The notes below the pieces were generated by a model. It did not search any database, was not told the origin of the DNA, and saw only the letters and a list, made by a program, of their open reading frames with translations. A program made the translations under genes and the position numbers. A DNA stretch of 21,294 nucleotides from a virus: positions 1-21,294 of the IMG/VR virus record IMGVR_UViG_3300027733_000240; one strand, given 5' to 3'. Of the stretch, positions 3,549 through 10,165 are shown piece after piece; position 1 is the first letter of the stretch; each line of letters begins with the position of its first letter.

Positions 3549-3920
3549 ATGGCAAATCCTAATATCGTCAACGTCACTTCCATTTATGGAAATACGTCTT
3601 ACCTTATTCCTAGCACCACAGGGGCAACCACTTGGACTGCGTTAACGCCTGCATCTAACACGGTTAACAAAATTGACAATATCGTGGCGGCTAACGTGAC
3701 GGGCTCTGTTGCAGCGGTGACTGTTGCAATTAATAGTGCGGCGGCTGGCGCTGGCACAAACTATCGCATCGTCTATCAAATCCCAGTTCCTGTGAACGCC
3801 TCAATCGTTGTTGTGGACAAAAGCACGGCGTTTTACTTGGGTGAGGCCCAATCCATTGTGGTGACAGTTGGAACGGCAAACGCCATTGAATTAACCGCAT
3901 CGTATGAGGCGATTACCTAA
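3549..3920 (+). CDS. Conserved small phage structural protein (123 aa)
   Basis: A GAGGAAT ribosome binding site overlaps the preceding stop and precedes the ATG. The N-terminus MANPNIVNVTSIYGNT and the C-terminal half (YRIVYQIPVPVNASIVVVDK, then SIVVTVGTANAIELTASYE) match a kind of small protein that I recall near fibre genes of aquatic phages. It is predicted to be all-beta, soluble and without catalytic motifs. The alternating apolar strands at about residues 70-120 resemble a virion decoration or fibre-base domain. The stop overlaps the next start by one base (TAATG), so it is probably translated with the glycine-rich adhesin that follows. The exact function is unknown. Confidence 0.6.
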   Translation: MANPNIVNVTSIYGNTSYLIPSTTGATTWTALTPASNTVNKIDNIVAANVTGSVAAVTVAINSAAAGAGTNYRIVYQIPVPVNASIVVVDKSTAFYLGEAQSIVVTVGTANAIELTASYEAIT

Positions 3921-4876
3921 TGTCTACCCGCTACAAAGGGTCAATTCTTTCGTCAACGGCGGCGACAAATACGTCATCCGCTGCGATTGGTATTTGGCGC
4001 TTGAATGAGGTAACGCAAGGATTGCAGGCGACTGCATGGCCTAAAGTTCAATTATTGGTTCAATACCTTGTTGTTGCGGGTGGTGGTGGCGGTGGTGGAA
4101 CTTACGCTGCCGGTGGCGGTGGTGCTGGTGGATTTTTAACTGCCACAGGATTTTCTGTAAGTTTTGGTACTGCAATTACTGTAACAGTAGGTGCAGGCGG
4201 CGCAGGAGGCGCAAGCCTTAATGCTGGAACTAGTGGTTCAAATTCTGTTTTTTCTAGCATAACAGCCAATGGCGGTGGTGGTGGCGGTAATTATCAAACG
4301 TCTGTTGCAAATTCGTCTGGCACGGCTGCTGGATACGGAAAAGACGGGGGTTCTGGTGGCGGCGCATCAAATGGCCCTGGTTCTGCAAGAATTGGTGGAT
4401 CAGCAGTTTCTGGCCAAGGAAATGCTGGAGGAAATGCAAACGAGGCTTCCCCTTATTTGGGTGCAGGCGGTGGAGGCGCAGGCGCTGCTGGCGCTGGCGG
4501 CACAGGATATGGAACAGGAACAGGAAACGGTGGAAATGGAACGGCATCATCTATAACGGGTTCATCTGTTACTTATGCGGGTGGTGGTGGCGGTTCTAAG
4601 TATTTGTCATACCCAGCAGGCGCTGGAGGCACGGGCGGTGGTGGCGCGGGTTCTGATGGATCAGTTGCTCCTGGCGCTGGCGGCACAAATCTTGGTGGCG
4701 GTGGTGGTGGTACAGAACGCAATGGTATTTATTTAACAGGCGGCGCAGGCGGTTCTGGCGTGGTCATTATTTCTTCTCCACAAGCGGCTGCATCTACCAC
4801 AGGCTCCCCAACTGTTACCACTAGCGGCGGCAATACCATTTATACATTTACGTCCAGCGGGACAATTACATTCTGA
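3920..4876 (+). CDS. Glycine-rich tail-fibre/adhesin protein 1 (318 aa)
   Basis: The N-terminus (about 1-50) carries SAAIGIWRLNEVTQ and TAWP, a short segment that I recognise from fibre proteins of aquatic phages and that probably serves as the attachment region. From residue about 50 the sequence reads VVAGGGGGGG and then alternates polyglycine tracts with short beta-like stretches (ITVTVGAGGAGG, SSITANGGGGGG). It closes with SGVVIISSPQ, TGSPTVTTSGG and YTFTSSGTITF. This layout matches glycine-rich domain proteins. Glycine-rich loops in T-even gp38 adhesins are known to pack as polyglycine helices that display variable receptor-binding loops, so a tip-adhesin role is likely but inferred. A shorter paralogue lies at 5846-6646. 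Confidence 0.75.
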   Translation: MSTRYKGSILSSTAATNTSSAAIGIWRLNEVTQGLQATAWPKVQLLVQYLVVAGGGGGGGTYAAGGGGAGGFLTATGFSVSFGTAITVTVGAGGAGGASLNAGTSGSNSVFSSITANGGGGGGNYQTSVANSSGTAAGYGKDGGSGGGASNGPGSARIGGSAVSGQGNAGGNANEASPYLGAGGGGAGAAGAGGTGYGTGTGNGGNGTASSITGSSVTYAGGGGGSKYLSYPAGAGGTGGGGAGSDGSVAPGAGGTNLGGGGGGTERNGIYLTGGAGGSGVVIISSPQAAASTTGSPTVTTSGGNTIYTFTSSGTITF

Positions 4877-5845: not shown

Positions 5846-6646
5846 ATGCCACTCCTTGCCGCAACTGGTCTTTTAAGCCCGCATAGTTATGGGTTTACAA
5901 CCGGCCCTAACTTTTCCGTTTTAATTGTTGGCGGTGGAGGTGGAAGTTCACGTTTAAGCGCAACTGGTTCTGCGCCAGGTGGAGCCGGTGGCATTATTTA
6001 TTCTGATTCTTTGGCCCCATCATCAGGAACGTACACAATTACCGTTGGAGGTGGCGGTTCGGGGGTCGGCACTCCTACTAGCGGTAGTTCATCCTCTGCT
6101 TTTTCATTGACCGCAGGCGGTGGTGGAGGCGGTGGATATACTGGTAGCGGAAATGGATTGGCTGGTAACGCATCAAATGGTTCTGGTGGTGCAGGCTCTT
6201 GGGGATCGTTTGCGACTCCCTCAAATGGCGGCGCAGGAAACGGAACAGGCAATGCGGGCGGCGGTGGAAACTTTGACTCAACAAACACAAGCGCAGGCGG
6301 TGGTGGCGGTGCAGGATCGGCAGGCGCAACATCTAGCGTTTACGGCGTAGGCGGGGCTGGTGGCAATGGCCTACCTTATGGGATCACAGGAACTGCGGTT
6401 TATTATTCTGGCGCAGGCGGTGGAAGCGGGACAGTTAGTTTTGGCGCTGATGGCCTTGGTGTCCTTGGTTATGGTGGCGGCGCTCAAGCGGATACTACTG
6501 GAACTACTGGTAACGACGGTAAACAGGGAATTGTCATTATTAGGACAAATAAGGCTGCTTCTGCAACCACAGGAAGCCCAACAGTTACCAAAGTCGGTTC
6601 ATTAAATGTTTACCAATTTACATCATCAGGGTCTATCACATTGTGA
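5846..6646 (+). CDS. Glycine-rich tail-fibre/adhesin protein 2 (266 aa)
   Basis: This is a paralogue of the 318-aa protein at 3920-4876. It has the same alternation of polyglycine tracts and short strands (VLIVGGGGGSS, TYTITVGGGGSG, LTAGGGGGGGY) and the same close: [33 protein letters not shown]. It lacks the N-terminal GIWRLNEV-type segment of its relative and begins almost directly with the glycine-rich body, so it must attach differently or act as a separate tip. The variable loops between glycine tracts differ between the two copies, as expected of receptor-binding loops. The start lies two bases after the preceding stop. Confidence 0.72.
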   Translation: MPLLAATGLLSPHSYGFTTGPNFSVLIVGGGGGSSRLSATGSAPGGAGGIIYSDSLAPSSGTYTITVGGGGSGVGTPTSGSSSSAFSLTAGGGGGGGYTGSGNGLAGNASNGSGGAGSWGSFATPSNGGAGNGTGNAGGGGNFDSTNTSAGGGGGAGSAGATSSVYGVGGAGGNGLPYGITGTAVYYSGAGGGSGTVSFGADGLGVLGYGGGAQADTTGTTGNDGKQGIVIIRTNKAASATTGSPTVTKVGSLNVYQFTSSGSITL

Positions 6647-6978
6647 TTACCAGTTGGAAAATCCTAGATATATCAGTTGAGGGAAAAGTAATTACCCGCG
6701 CCAAGTATCACGTTTTGGCTACGGATGAGACAAATGAAGTAGAAACAGAAGGAATTTGGGAGTTTGATCGGTTCAATCCGACCACTCCATACGCCGAAGT
6801 TACCGAAAAACAGGTGATTTCATGGATCAAAGACGGTGCTACGCAATTTGGGCAAAATGTAATAGAATCACGGCTAGAGGAACAATTGGCGCTTCTCAGT
6901 AAGTCGAAATCTGTTGTGCCTCCGTGGAAACCGCCTGTGTTTACCTTGGAGCAGCAATGGCACAGCCAATCGACATAG
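6643..6978 (+). CDS. Conserved phage protein downstream of fibre genes (111 aa)
   Basis: It starts with GTG at 6643, overlapping the previous stop as GTGA, and the frame is closed further upstream. The protein is charged and soluble, unlike its neighbours, with an N-terminal beta-rich half ([25 protein letters not shown]) and a helical second half ([23 protein letters not shown]). I recall similar small proteins beside fibre genes in aquatic phages. A tail-fibre assembly or chaperone-like role is possible given the composition, but is not demonstrated. Its last 22 bases overlap the start of the gp4-like gene, which links the fibre cassette to the neck genes by translation. Confidence 0.6.
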
Positions 6979-7928
6979 TATCAAGAGCATTAAAAGACAT
7001 CGGAGCATTAGAGGCCGGCGAAACGCCTACGCCTGATGCGGCGCAGGATGCGTTTGATATGCTCAACGATATGTTAGATCAATGGTCTAACGAAGATATG
7101 ATGGTCTACAACTTCACGGAAATCATTTTCCCCGTGACAAGTGGACAAATCCAATACACCATCGGCCCAGGCGGGACAATAGGCGCAAGTTTTACCGGCT
7201 CAATCTCTGGCAACATCTTGACGGTAACCGCTATTGCCTCGGGCGCTGTTACGCTAAACCAAACCCTGACCGGCACAGGAATCACCCCTGGAACAACCAT
7301 TGTGTCGTTTATCGGTGGTTCTGGTGGTGATATTTTGGAAGCGGGAACGTATCAAGTAAACATCCCGCAGACCGTGGCAAGCACCACAATCTCAGGTTTT
7401 TACCAAAAGCCTTTGCGCGTCAACTCTGCATTTGTGCGGATTAACACCACATCCAACGGTCAACCCATCCTTGGCGGTGGCCTTGACTACCCCGTGGCGG
7501 TGCTGACCCTTGACGACTATTCTTTGATCGGCCTCAAGACCCTTAACGGCCCGTGGCCCAAGGCTTTGTACTACAACCCTGGCGACACATTGGGAAATCT
7601 GAGCGTTTGGCCCAATCCGTCCCAAGGTGAAATGCACTTGTTTACGGACACCATTTTTGCACGATTTACCACAATGTACGACATCATGCGAATTCCGCAA
7701 GGCTACGTTAATGCGCTGCGCTGGTGTCTTGCAGAACGTCTAATGCCTATGTATGGCAAAGCCAGCCCCGTGCAAATTGGCATGATTTCCAAGTTTGCAG
7801 GCGAGGCTAAAGCGACCATTAAACGCACTAATATGCGCCCGCAAATGGTTTCGCGCTATCAGGATGCACTACTTACCGGACGTTCTAAAGATGCCGGCTG
7901 GATTTTGACCGGCGGCTTTTTGCGTTAA
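6957..7928 (+). CDS. P22 gp4-like tail accessory / head-tail adaptor protein (323 aa)
   Basis: I chose the ATG at 6957, preceded by GGAG; the ATG at 6924 would add 11 unlikely residues. Residues 1-50 ([35 protein letters not shown]) are the helical adaptor signature of the gp4 family, which binds under the portal and helps retain packaged DNA. The C-terminal third ([27 protein letters not shown]) continues the helical fold. Residues about 79-147 interrupt it with a beta module ([15 protein letters not shown]...[11 protein letters not shown]...[11 protein letters not shown]) that also appears twice in the next protein. P22 gp4 is much shorter (166 aa). The position directly before the gp10-like gene matches P22 order. 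Confidence 0.85.
7191..7397 (+). repeat. Beta-module copy 1, inside the gp4-like gene
   Basis: This stretch encodes residues about 79-147 of the adaptor. The shared pattern is FTGSIS..LTVT, then SG.....Q.LTGTGIT, then T.I....G.G, then GTY.(V/I)...QTV. Copies 2 and 3 lie at 8334-8528 and 8547-8744. This copy carries about four extra residues ([12 protein letters not shown]) before its last strand pair compared with the others. Confidence 0.8.
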
Positions 7929-7937
7929 AGGACTGTC

Positions 7938-9935
7938 ATGCCCGAATTCGGATTTGTCGGCCCAAGTTACGAAGCGCCCTCGATTTATCAAGAATCGCAG
8001 GAGTGCATCAACTTTTTCCCCGAAATTGACCCGTTAAAAGAAGGCGGCGTTCGGGGCGTTGTTGCGCTTTATCCGACCCCAGGGTTAACCCTAGAGGCGG
8101 TGCTAAACAATGCCGAAGTGCGCGGCTTGCGTACCTTGTCAGGCGGTAGCCAAATGGTTGCGGTCTGCGGCTCCTACGTTTACGTCTTTACTTCAAACCT
8201 GTCGGCTACCGTGGTCGGCATTCTCAATTCGTCCTCGGGGCGTGTTGGCATCTCTGACAACGGAATAAACGCTTACATTGTGGATGGGGTCTATCGGTAC
8301 ACATGGCGCATTTCCAGCCCCGCAAACGCCGTTTTCACGGGTTCTATTAGCGGCACAACCCTAACGGTTACCCAAGTAAGTAGCGGAACAATTACGGCTC
8401 ATCAATCTTTGACCGGCATCGGCATCACGGCAGAGACTGTGATTACCGCCTTGGGCACGGGTACAGGTGGAACAGGCACTTACACCATCAATCTTTCCCA
8501 AACCGTAGCAGCAGAAACAATGACTTCTGCTGCGGTTGGCGCTCGGTTTACGGCGACTATTGCAGGAACAACCCTTACCGTGTCCGCAGTAGCAAGCGGC
8601 ACAATTTACCTTGGTCAAACAATCCAAGGTGTAGGTCTTACCGTTGGGACAATCATCACCGCATTGGGCACAGGCTCGGGTGCGACAGGCACTTATACAA
8701 TCAGCACGGCGCACACCATTGTGACCGGCATAACCATGTATGCGCTGAATTTCAGCGTTTTGCCAAGTTCTGATGGTGCGTTTAGTGGCGGCACATCAGT
8801 GGACATTGTGGACAATTATTTCGTCTACAACAACCCAGGCACACAACAATGGGGATCGTCTAATCTATTAAGCCCAATTTCCACGTCCACATCTTACGCG
8901 CTCAAAGATGGTGCGCCCGATAAATTGGTGGCCTTGATTGTTGACCACCGCGAAGTTTATTTGATGGGTGAGGCATCCTCCGAAGTTTGGACGGATGTGG
9001 GCGCAGTTCCCTTCCCTTTCCAGCGTATTCCTGGAACGTCCACCCAGCACGGTATTGCTGCCCAATTCTCTGTCGCCCGCCTTGGCAATTCATTTGCCTA
9101 CGTTTCCCGCAACAATCGCGGACAAGCGCAGATCATGCAAATGCAAGGGTATATCCCACAAAGGATTTCAACCCATGCGGTGGAGAATACCTTAACGAAT
9201 CAATACATAGATGATGCTATTTCGTACACCTACCAATTGGAAGGGCACGAAATCTACGTTACGACATTTCCGACTTTGAATCTGACATGGGCTTATGACG
9301 CAACCACAACCATGTGGCACAAATGGCTCGGCATGGCCTCTGATGGCACTTATATGCGGCATTGGAGCAATTGCTCTGCATCGTTCCAAGGTTTGGTTTT
9401 AGTTGGCGATTACTCCAACGGAAAAATCTATTCCTTGAGCAAACAGAACTACACCGACAACGGCACAAACGTGCGCAGATTGCGCCGTGCGCCTCATTTG
9501 GTGACCGACTTTCAGCGCCAATACTTTGACGAACTGCAAATCCAGTTTCAACCTGGCGTTGGAACTACAGGCTTGTTTGTCCCGCAGATTTTGTATTCGC
9601 GCACAATATTGTTGCAAACGCCTTACACAATCACAAGTACGGCAATTCTGACAATACCGTTTGACCAGCAGGACATTATTGGCGATTCAATCCCTTTTGA
9701 TTCCACGGTTACAACAACTAACCCCAAGGCTATGCTGCGCTGGTCTAATGATGGTGGTTCTACTTGGTCAAAAGAGTATTGGGTCAGCATCGGACAATTG
9801 GGCCGGTTCAAGAATCGTGCGATTTGGCGGCGTTTGGGCATGGCCCGTGATCGAGTGTTTGAGGTGTCAATCTCTGACCCTGTGAACGCTGTGATTGTGT
9901 CTGCCAACCTTAAATCATCGGCTGGAGAAAATTAA
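7938..9935 (+). CDS. P22 gp10-like packaged-DNA stabilisation / tail hub protein (665 aa)
   Basis: The start has an AAAGGA site five bases upstream. The N-terminus ([46 protein letters not shown]) is the gp10 family pattern: a declaration of strain-specific ends followed by beta-propeller-like strands. gp10 closes the head after packaging and anchors tailspikes in P22. Residues about 133-197 and 204-269 are two tandem copies of the beta module also found in the gp4-like protein. The rest ([49 protein letters not shown]) continues the gp10-type fold. P22 gp10 has 472 residues, so the module copies explain about 135 of the extra length. The stop overlaps the next start (TAATG). Confidence 0.85.
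8334..8528 (+). repeat. Beta-module copy 2, inside the gp10-like gene
   Basis: It encodes residues about 133-197 ([50 protein letters not shown]). It is followed after six residues by copy 3. The strand pattern and the SG, TG.GIT, GTG and GTYTI.L positions are shared with copy 1 in the preceding gene. Confidence 0.82.
8547..8744 (+). repeat. Beta-module copy 3, inside the gp10-like gene
   Basis: It encodes residues about 204-269 ([48 protein letters not shown]). Copies 2 and 3 share an ITALGTG(T/S)G core and the GTYTI strand, so they are closer to each other than to copy 1, as expected from a local duplication. Confidence 0.82.
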
Positions 9936-10165
9936 TGGCGCTTTCCAATACGCAACAAATTAATCCGTATCCTCAGTCGGAGTTTTTGGACGCGAACACA
10001 AAACGCCCAACTCGAGCGTGGCAACAGTTTTTTCTCAATTTGCTTAATTTTTCAAGCGCAACCACGGCAACCGCAGGTTCAGCAACCTTGCCCGCCAACC
10101 CAGTCGGATTTATAAACGTGACCGTTAACGGCAACGCTTATAAAATTCCGTACTACAACGTGTAA
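9935..10165 (+). CDS. Small conserved phage protein between gp10-like and gp7-like genes (76 aa)
   Basis: The start overlaps the previous stop (TAATG). The N-terminal 40 residues are polar with a helical WQQFFLNLLNF segment, and the C-terminus reads PVGFINVTVNGNAYKIPYYN. I recall this ending (a Gly-Phe/Tyr-Ile/Leu-Asn-Val strand followed by KIPYYNV) from small proteins of other aquatic phages. In P22 the tail needle gp26 and assembly factor gp14 occupy this place. The protein is far too short for a needle like gp26 (233 aa), so a small tip, plug or assembly role is only an inference. Confidence 0.6.
   Translation: MALSNTQQINPYPQSEFLDANTKRPTRAWQQFFLNLLNFSSATTATAGSATLPANPVGFINVTVNGNAYKIPYYNV

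Follow-up and report, generated by a model that had tools for sequence, protein, structure and literature searches.

The gp4-like adaptor and the gp10-like hub

The window analysed here, the whole stretch of 21,294 bases from a virus record, is a podovirus-type genome fragment of a freshwater virus. It encodes two neighbouring neck proteins that carry copies of one inserted module:

6957..7928, plus strand: gp4-like head-tail adaptor, 323 aa, starting at ATG 6957
7176..7406, plus strand: whole gp4 insert, between residues 73 and 151 (by alignment)
7188..7400, plus strand: gp4 module copy (HMM match; 53% identity to the gp10 modules over a match with E 3e-12)
7938..9935, plus strand: gp10-like hub or head-closure protein, 665 aa
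8322..8747, plus strand: whole gp10 insert, residues 129-270 (by alignment)
8334..8537, plus strand: first tandem gp10 module, residues 133-200 (HMM match; AlphaFold)
8547..8750, plus strand: second tandem gp10 module, residues 204-271 (HMM match; full-length gp10 model)

The larger protein matches PHROG 578, the head-closure family Hc3, by profile (E 2.6e-88), and its PDB profile matches comprise P22 gp10, Sf6 gp8 and the Pam1 and Pan3 hubs (best E 1.6e-54). Structurally, its full-length AlphaFold model aligns with P22 gp10 (8eap) at a TM-score of 0.70 by target. By sequence and by fold it is a P22 gp10-like hub (Hc3). The gene directly before it, whose first methionine also begins its homologues, matches PHROG 12985 (E 6e-38), PHROG 637 (adaptor Ad3) and, by PDB profile, P22 gp4 (E 7e-5). 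Its sequence and its position, which agrees with the expected gene order, identify it as a P22 gp4-like adaptor. Both proteins had been correctly named in the original prediction, made from the DNA letters. It had also noted that the P22 counterparts are shorter, which they are (gp4, 166 aa; gp10, 472 aa), but the inserts do not make up the whole size difference: they account for 77 of the 157 extra residues in gp4 and 142 of the 193 in gp10.

No tRNA genes or Rfam elements were found in the window. Just upstream of gp4 lie two glycine-rich proteins (3920-4876 and 5846-6646), both assigned to PHROG 2295 and alike at their C-terminal ends (TTGSPTV..YxFTSSGxIT), which resemble glycine-rich phage adhesins. 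After gp10, a 76-aa ORF (9935-10165) resembles a fibre protein's N-terminal anchor; in the sister phages L377 and L383 the fibre counterpart of this ORF is 450-500 aa long and itself contains one module.

Three homologous copies of one module

The module copies are ∼65-75 residues long, one in gp4 and two in tandem in gp10. Pairwise identities among the three are 56, 44 and 57%, with alignment scores 13.3, 10.4 and 14.8 SD above 1000 shuffles, and an HMM built from them matches exactly these three stretches in the window. The three copies are homologous, which confirms the arrangement first read from the sequence. The motif strings proposed at that stage hold for both gp10 copies (LTGIGIT ... 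ITALGTG ... GTYTI in the first, IQGVGLT ... ITALGTG ... GTYTI in the second) but not for the gp4 copy, which reads LTGTGIT ... GTYQV; here the third motif differs, the loop is longer and the end is GTYQV instead.

Clean insertion in both proteins

In an alignment of 183 gp10 sequences, the stretch flanked by residues 128 and 271 of the window protein is empty in 76 proteins (0 residues); it is ∼142 residues long in 98 and 224-268 in eight, and one protein has 76 unrelated residues there. The equivalent site in P22 gp10 is the short turn Y117-D118-G119-T120 (numbering from the alignment). None of the 10 aligned homologues from named phages has the gp10 segment; the nearest two, MW202520 and MW202674 (61-63% identical), do have the gp4 segment. 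Rhodoferax phage P26218, PAE2 and DSL-LC05 have neither segment. In a sister clade the gp4 module is present, while 67 of 67 gp10 proteins have none. The gp4 site, between residues 73 and 151, holds 5-6 residues in seven references, ∼77-83 in ∼160 sequences and 145-150, amounting to two modules, in nine. The module is a true, clean insertion, absent from other gp4 and gp10 homologues, and these site-length counts, with the AlphaFold models described below, bear out the proposal of a self-contained, inserted beta module. A constant place in all relatives, as expected of a fixed part of the fold, is seen within the close clade alone, and gp10 relatives beyond that clade have 0 residues at the site.

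Other material occurs at the same positions. The one gp10 with unrelated residues, from a Herbaspirillum contig with a prophage (L190:380-2026), carries its 76-aa repeat-like module (HGRKTGETIIIAGATPAAYNGTFTVT) precisely at the turn where other gp10 proteins have the tandem, and the gp10 hub turn may therefore be an insertion hot spot. In the gp10 proteins L173:4241-6481, L249:3122-5329 and L301:3611-5989, the extra length comes from other repeat-like sequence that separates the two modules or lies within them, with 80-125 residues placed before or inside the second (NRGSGYTTAPTVTF, YTNPTTYYITATNGTTTFTLS). The gp4 of Xanthomonas phage PBR31 (L005:3986-4936) also has an insert at this gp4 site, ∼65-80 residues long and containing the motif LVLGGDISGAGIPAGATVTAIG; its match to the module profile is weak and short (hhalign probability 22% over 24 columns). 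Apparent inserts at the gp4 site in L266 and L284 were dropped, as those gp4-like ORFs are differently built proteins.

Predicted fold and nearest structures

AlphaFold, applied to 106 diverse modules, predicts a compact beta domain (mean pLDDT 94.7, pTM 0.83) with strands at module positions 4-22, 29-32, 40-44 and 53-72. From the window, the fold was predicted for the first gp10 copy by itself and for both copies within full-length gp10. That full-length model (pLDDT 77.5) has low quality at residues 1-46 and over the C-terminal region; it places the modules at residues 131-199 and 202-269 with pLDDT ∼93, between strands 119-124 and 272-274. All three copies belong to one module family, by HMM match in every case and by shared fold for the gp10 copies. 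In the models, the two long outer strands suggest that both ends of the module leave together, a geometry that fits insertion into a loop.

Against the PDB, the module alone gave one convincing fold match, 8eci_1 from Arthrobacter phage Bridgette (124 aa; probability 1.00, TM-score 0.67 by query, 30% identity over 77 columns). This best match differs from the module in being a small separate chain, and its E value is only 9.6e-3; no sequence-profile match links the two, and PDB sequence searches with the module returned chance matches only. Bridgette has dimeric capsid cement proteins (PMC13033339), and 8eci_1 is probably one of these. Viral predicted structures that match the module include a major capsid protein, a gp10, fibres, a pectate-lyase protein and a tip protein J.

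Immunoglobulin-like domains of tailed-phage proteins, such as that of the PHROG 807 major tail protein or T4 Hoc (PMC10385173), are likewise surface beta domains on unrelated virion proteins. Unlike these, the module is predicted to have two long outer and two short inner strands, which is not the pattern of an Ig sandwich; it matched no Ig family HMM, and its Foldseek matches to antibodies were insignificant.

Occurrence in unrelated proteins and family status

The HMM detects the module in 145 distinct ORFs besides gp4 and gp10 among the loci fetched, which were collected by pattern scans of IMG/VR and GTDB and by HMMs; because the seeds were made from the module or its hosts, these loci show breadth, not frequency. 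A tblastn search with the module returned three records in phages and none in plasmids, probably because the low-complexity filter masks it. Viral host proteins comprise the tail sheath (PHROG 205), PHROG 1876, the major tail protein (PHROG 807), baseplate proteins (PHROG 438, PHROG 6, Baseplate_J), a minor head protein (PHROG 2122), virion structural proteins (PHROG 3645 and 3287), a tail protein (PHROG 376), and fibres, collars and pectate-lyase-like spikes. In Sinorhizobium phage phiLM21, a single module interrupts an apparent beta-helix tail fibre. Bacterial genomes carry it in a GH5 cellulase, a DUF6701/laminin-G protein and very long cyanobacterial ORFs; some matches on contigs assigned to bacteria are clearly phage genes, for example the gp4 and gp10 of L173. 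The HMM and the PHROG and Pfam assignments of these hosts show recurrence in unrelated proteins, in line with the similar motifs in phage and bacterial surface proteins mentioned in the original prediction. As the module also occurs in fibre, spike, sheath, tail-tube, baseplate, head and bacterial proteins, it is mobile over deep time, while being fixed within this clade.

The module is an uncatalogued domain, without a Pfam or NCBIfam family. The 106 diverse modules gave no NCBIfam match and only weak, scattered Pfam matches; one of these, FeoA (E 0.004-0.1), was rejected as the identity of the module because it falls below the family cut-off. Two PHROGs contain the module as one segment that is not the family's defining part: PHROG 38233 (tail fibre; positions ∼552-625 of 896) and PHROG 21413 (function not named; ∼397-467 of 595). 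Several module-bearing proteins match the 'tail fiber protein' PHROG 38233 through the module alone, a likely source of wrong annotation. Since the module is widespread and has no Pfam or NCBIfam entry, some virion proteins have probably been misnamed after it.

History of the copies

In the module tree, gp4 copies, gp10 first copies and gp10 second copies form three separate groups; the tree rests on few columns and its inner branches are mostly unsupported, so the deep order was not used. The gp10 copies align with higher scores to unrelated proteins' modules than to gp4 copies, and the difference persists in samples of equal size (gp10 first copy: 196 and 190 for unrelated proteins' modules, 170 and 173 for gp4 copies). 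Identity between gp4 and gp10 copies is about the same within genomes as between them (0.525 versus 0.509; 0.471 versus 0.470), and the partner from the same genome is the best match in 1-2 of 99 cases. The distances of each copy track its own host gene, and after correction for this the other copy contributes little (partial r 0.11 and 0.00). The separate groups, the tracking of host genes and the greater closeness of gp10 copies to unrelated modules do not support the idea, raised in the original prediction, that one module spread between the neighbouring gp4 and gp10 genes. Within genomes, the gp4 copy and the gp10 first copy are slightly more alike than between genomes (naive permutation p 0.0005), so that a degree of contact or exchange between the copies is conceivable.

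Where gp4 carries two modules, these are 24-50% identical within a pair, and the second resembles modules of other proteins more closely than it does its partner; new copies therefore seem to be drawn from a wider pool and then to stay. In L256:2732-5260 and L275:2693-5260, modules occur in a tail sheath gene and in the PHROG 1876 gene before it; the two copies are 66-72% identical and rank 4th-5th of 532, and this pair could be a case of local spread between neighbours.

Once gained, the gp10 insert has been retained. On a tree of the gp10 core with the insert removed, the 40 distinct tandem carriers are explained by a single gain without any loss. The median dN/dS is 0.094 for the insert and 0.052 for the gp10 core (44 usable pairs), and the insert is under purifying selection.

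A proposed display module on the phage neck

We lean towards the reading that the module is one compact ∼65-residue beta domain, taken up as a unit, inserted into loops of virion proteins and serving on the neck as outward decoration. Tailed phages would acquire the domain whole and carry it in loops of virion proteins. With the long first and last strands probably side by side and the ends leaving at one point, as the models suggest, it could be accommodated in a tight beta turn while the host fold stays intact. One copy would occupy a turn of the gp4 adaptor and two the hairpin turn of the propeller-like domain of gp10, the gp10 pair having presumably been acquired separately from the gp4 copy. 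If the neck holds 12 gp4 and 6 gp10 subunits, the numbers of chains per entry in solved relatives, it would display 24 modules (12 + 12), most likely facing outward. Such decoration may provide weak auxiliary contacts with the host surface or with surrounding polymers, or may shield the neck.

The closest known parallel is found in the 936 lactococcal phages, where carbohydrate-binding modules occur in the neck passage structure, the major tail protein and Dit; these add-ons are thought to give auxiliary host contacts, and two have been shown to bind host cells (PMC6669499). Recent domain shuffling has also been described in neck passage structures (PMC10684548). In both the 936 phages and the present case, small modules are added to several virion proteins, the neck among them; the 936 examples involve a siphophage collar and recognisable carbohydrate-binding folds, whereas here a podophage adaptor and hub carry a module with no known carbohydrate-binding match and hardly any tryptophan. 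Neither the family searches with the 106 members nor the significant fold matches returned a carbohydrate-binding module. The composition of the module (50% Thr/Ser/Gly, 0.2% Trp, few charged residues) is unlike that of typical carbohydrate-binding modules and counts against plain sugar binding. The distribution of the module, in exposed virion proteins and secreted-type bacterial enzymes, is that of displayed auxiliary modules and, together with the 936-phage analogy, favours outward decoration.

The main rival is a structural role, in which the 12 gp4 and 12 gp10 modules (6 x 2) pack together or dock tail fibres or spikes and so stiffen the neck. gp4 and gp10 touch in P22-type necks, their modules would match 12 to 12 in this clade (by chains per entry), the slight within-genome excess noted above points the same way, and the closest solved structure belongs to the capsid of a phage with cement proteins. 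The sister clade that pairs a gp4 module with a module-free gp10 nevertheless argues against a need for pairing, as do the phages with two gp4 modules and the near-absence of covariation between gp4 and gp10 module distances after host-gene correction. Overall, we regard structural packing as unlikely.

Less probable still is a tolerated passenger, a stable and easily inserted fold that spreads by recombination, has no specific role and is kept as clean removal is rare. Its low-complexity composition, its presence in many unrelated hosts and the other inserts accepted at the gp10 site (L190, L173, L249, L301) would suit such an element, but purifying selection at a dN/dS of ∼0.09 and the lack of any loss in ∼40 distinct gp10 lineages make it improbable. 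Recent duplication between the neighbours gp4 and gp10, which their adjacency and the similar PHROG 1876 and sheath copies of L256 and L275 might suggest, is highly improbable given the equal identities within and between genomes, the rarity of own-genome best partners and the nearness of gp10 copies to unrelated proteins' modules.

Implications for virion decoration

The decoration of virions with swappable beta domains is a known habit; what is described here is an uncatalogued domain in the adaptor and the hub, the core neck parts that hold the DNA in. Chances seem about even that the module exemplifies something broader: a family-less, fold-distinct mobile display domain, drawn from a pool common to phages and bacteria and plugged into turns of virion proteins from at least 10 unrelated families. 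The gp10 turn would then be a hot spot that accepts unrelated modules too, and necks would bear an auxiliary adhesion or shielding ring of 24 domains. Clean inserts in adaptor and hub, at one site together with unrelated domains, show places other than the fibres at which a tailed phage can add surface functions. An HMM of the module would help to correct annotation and open the role of virion decorations other than fibres to testing.
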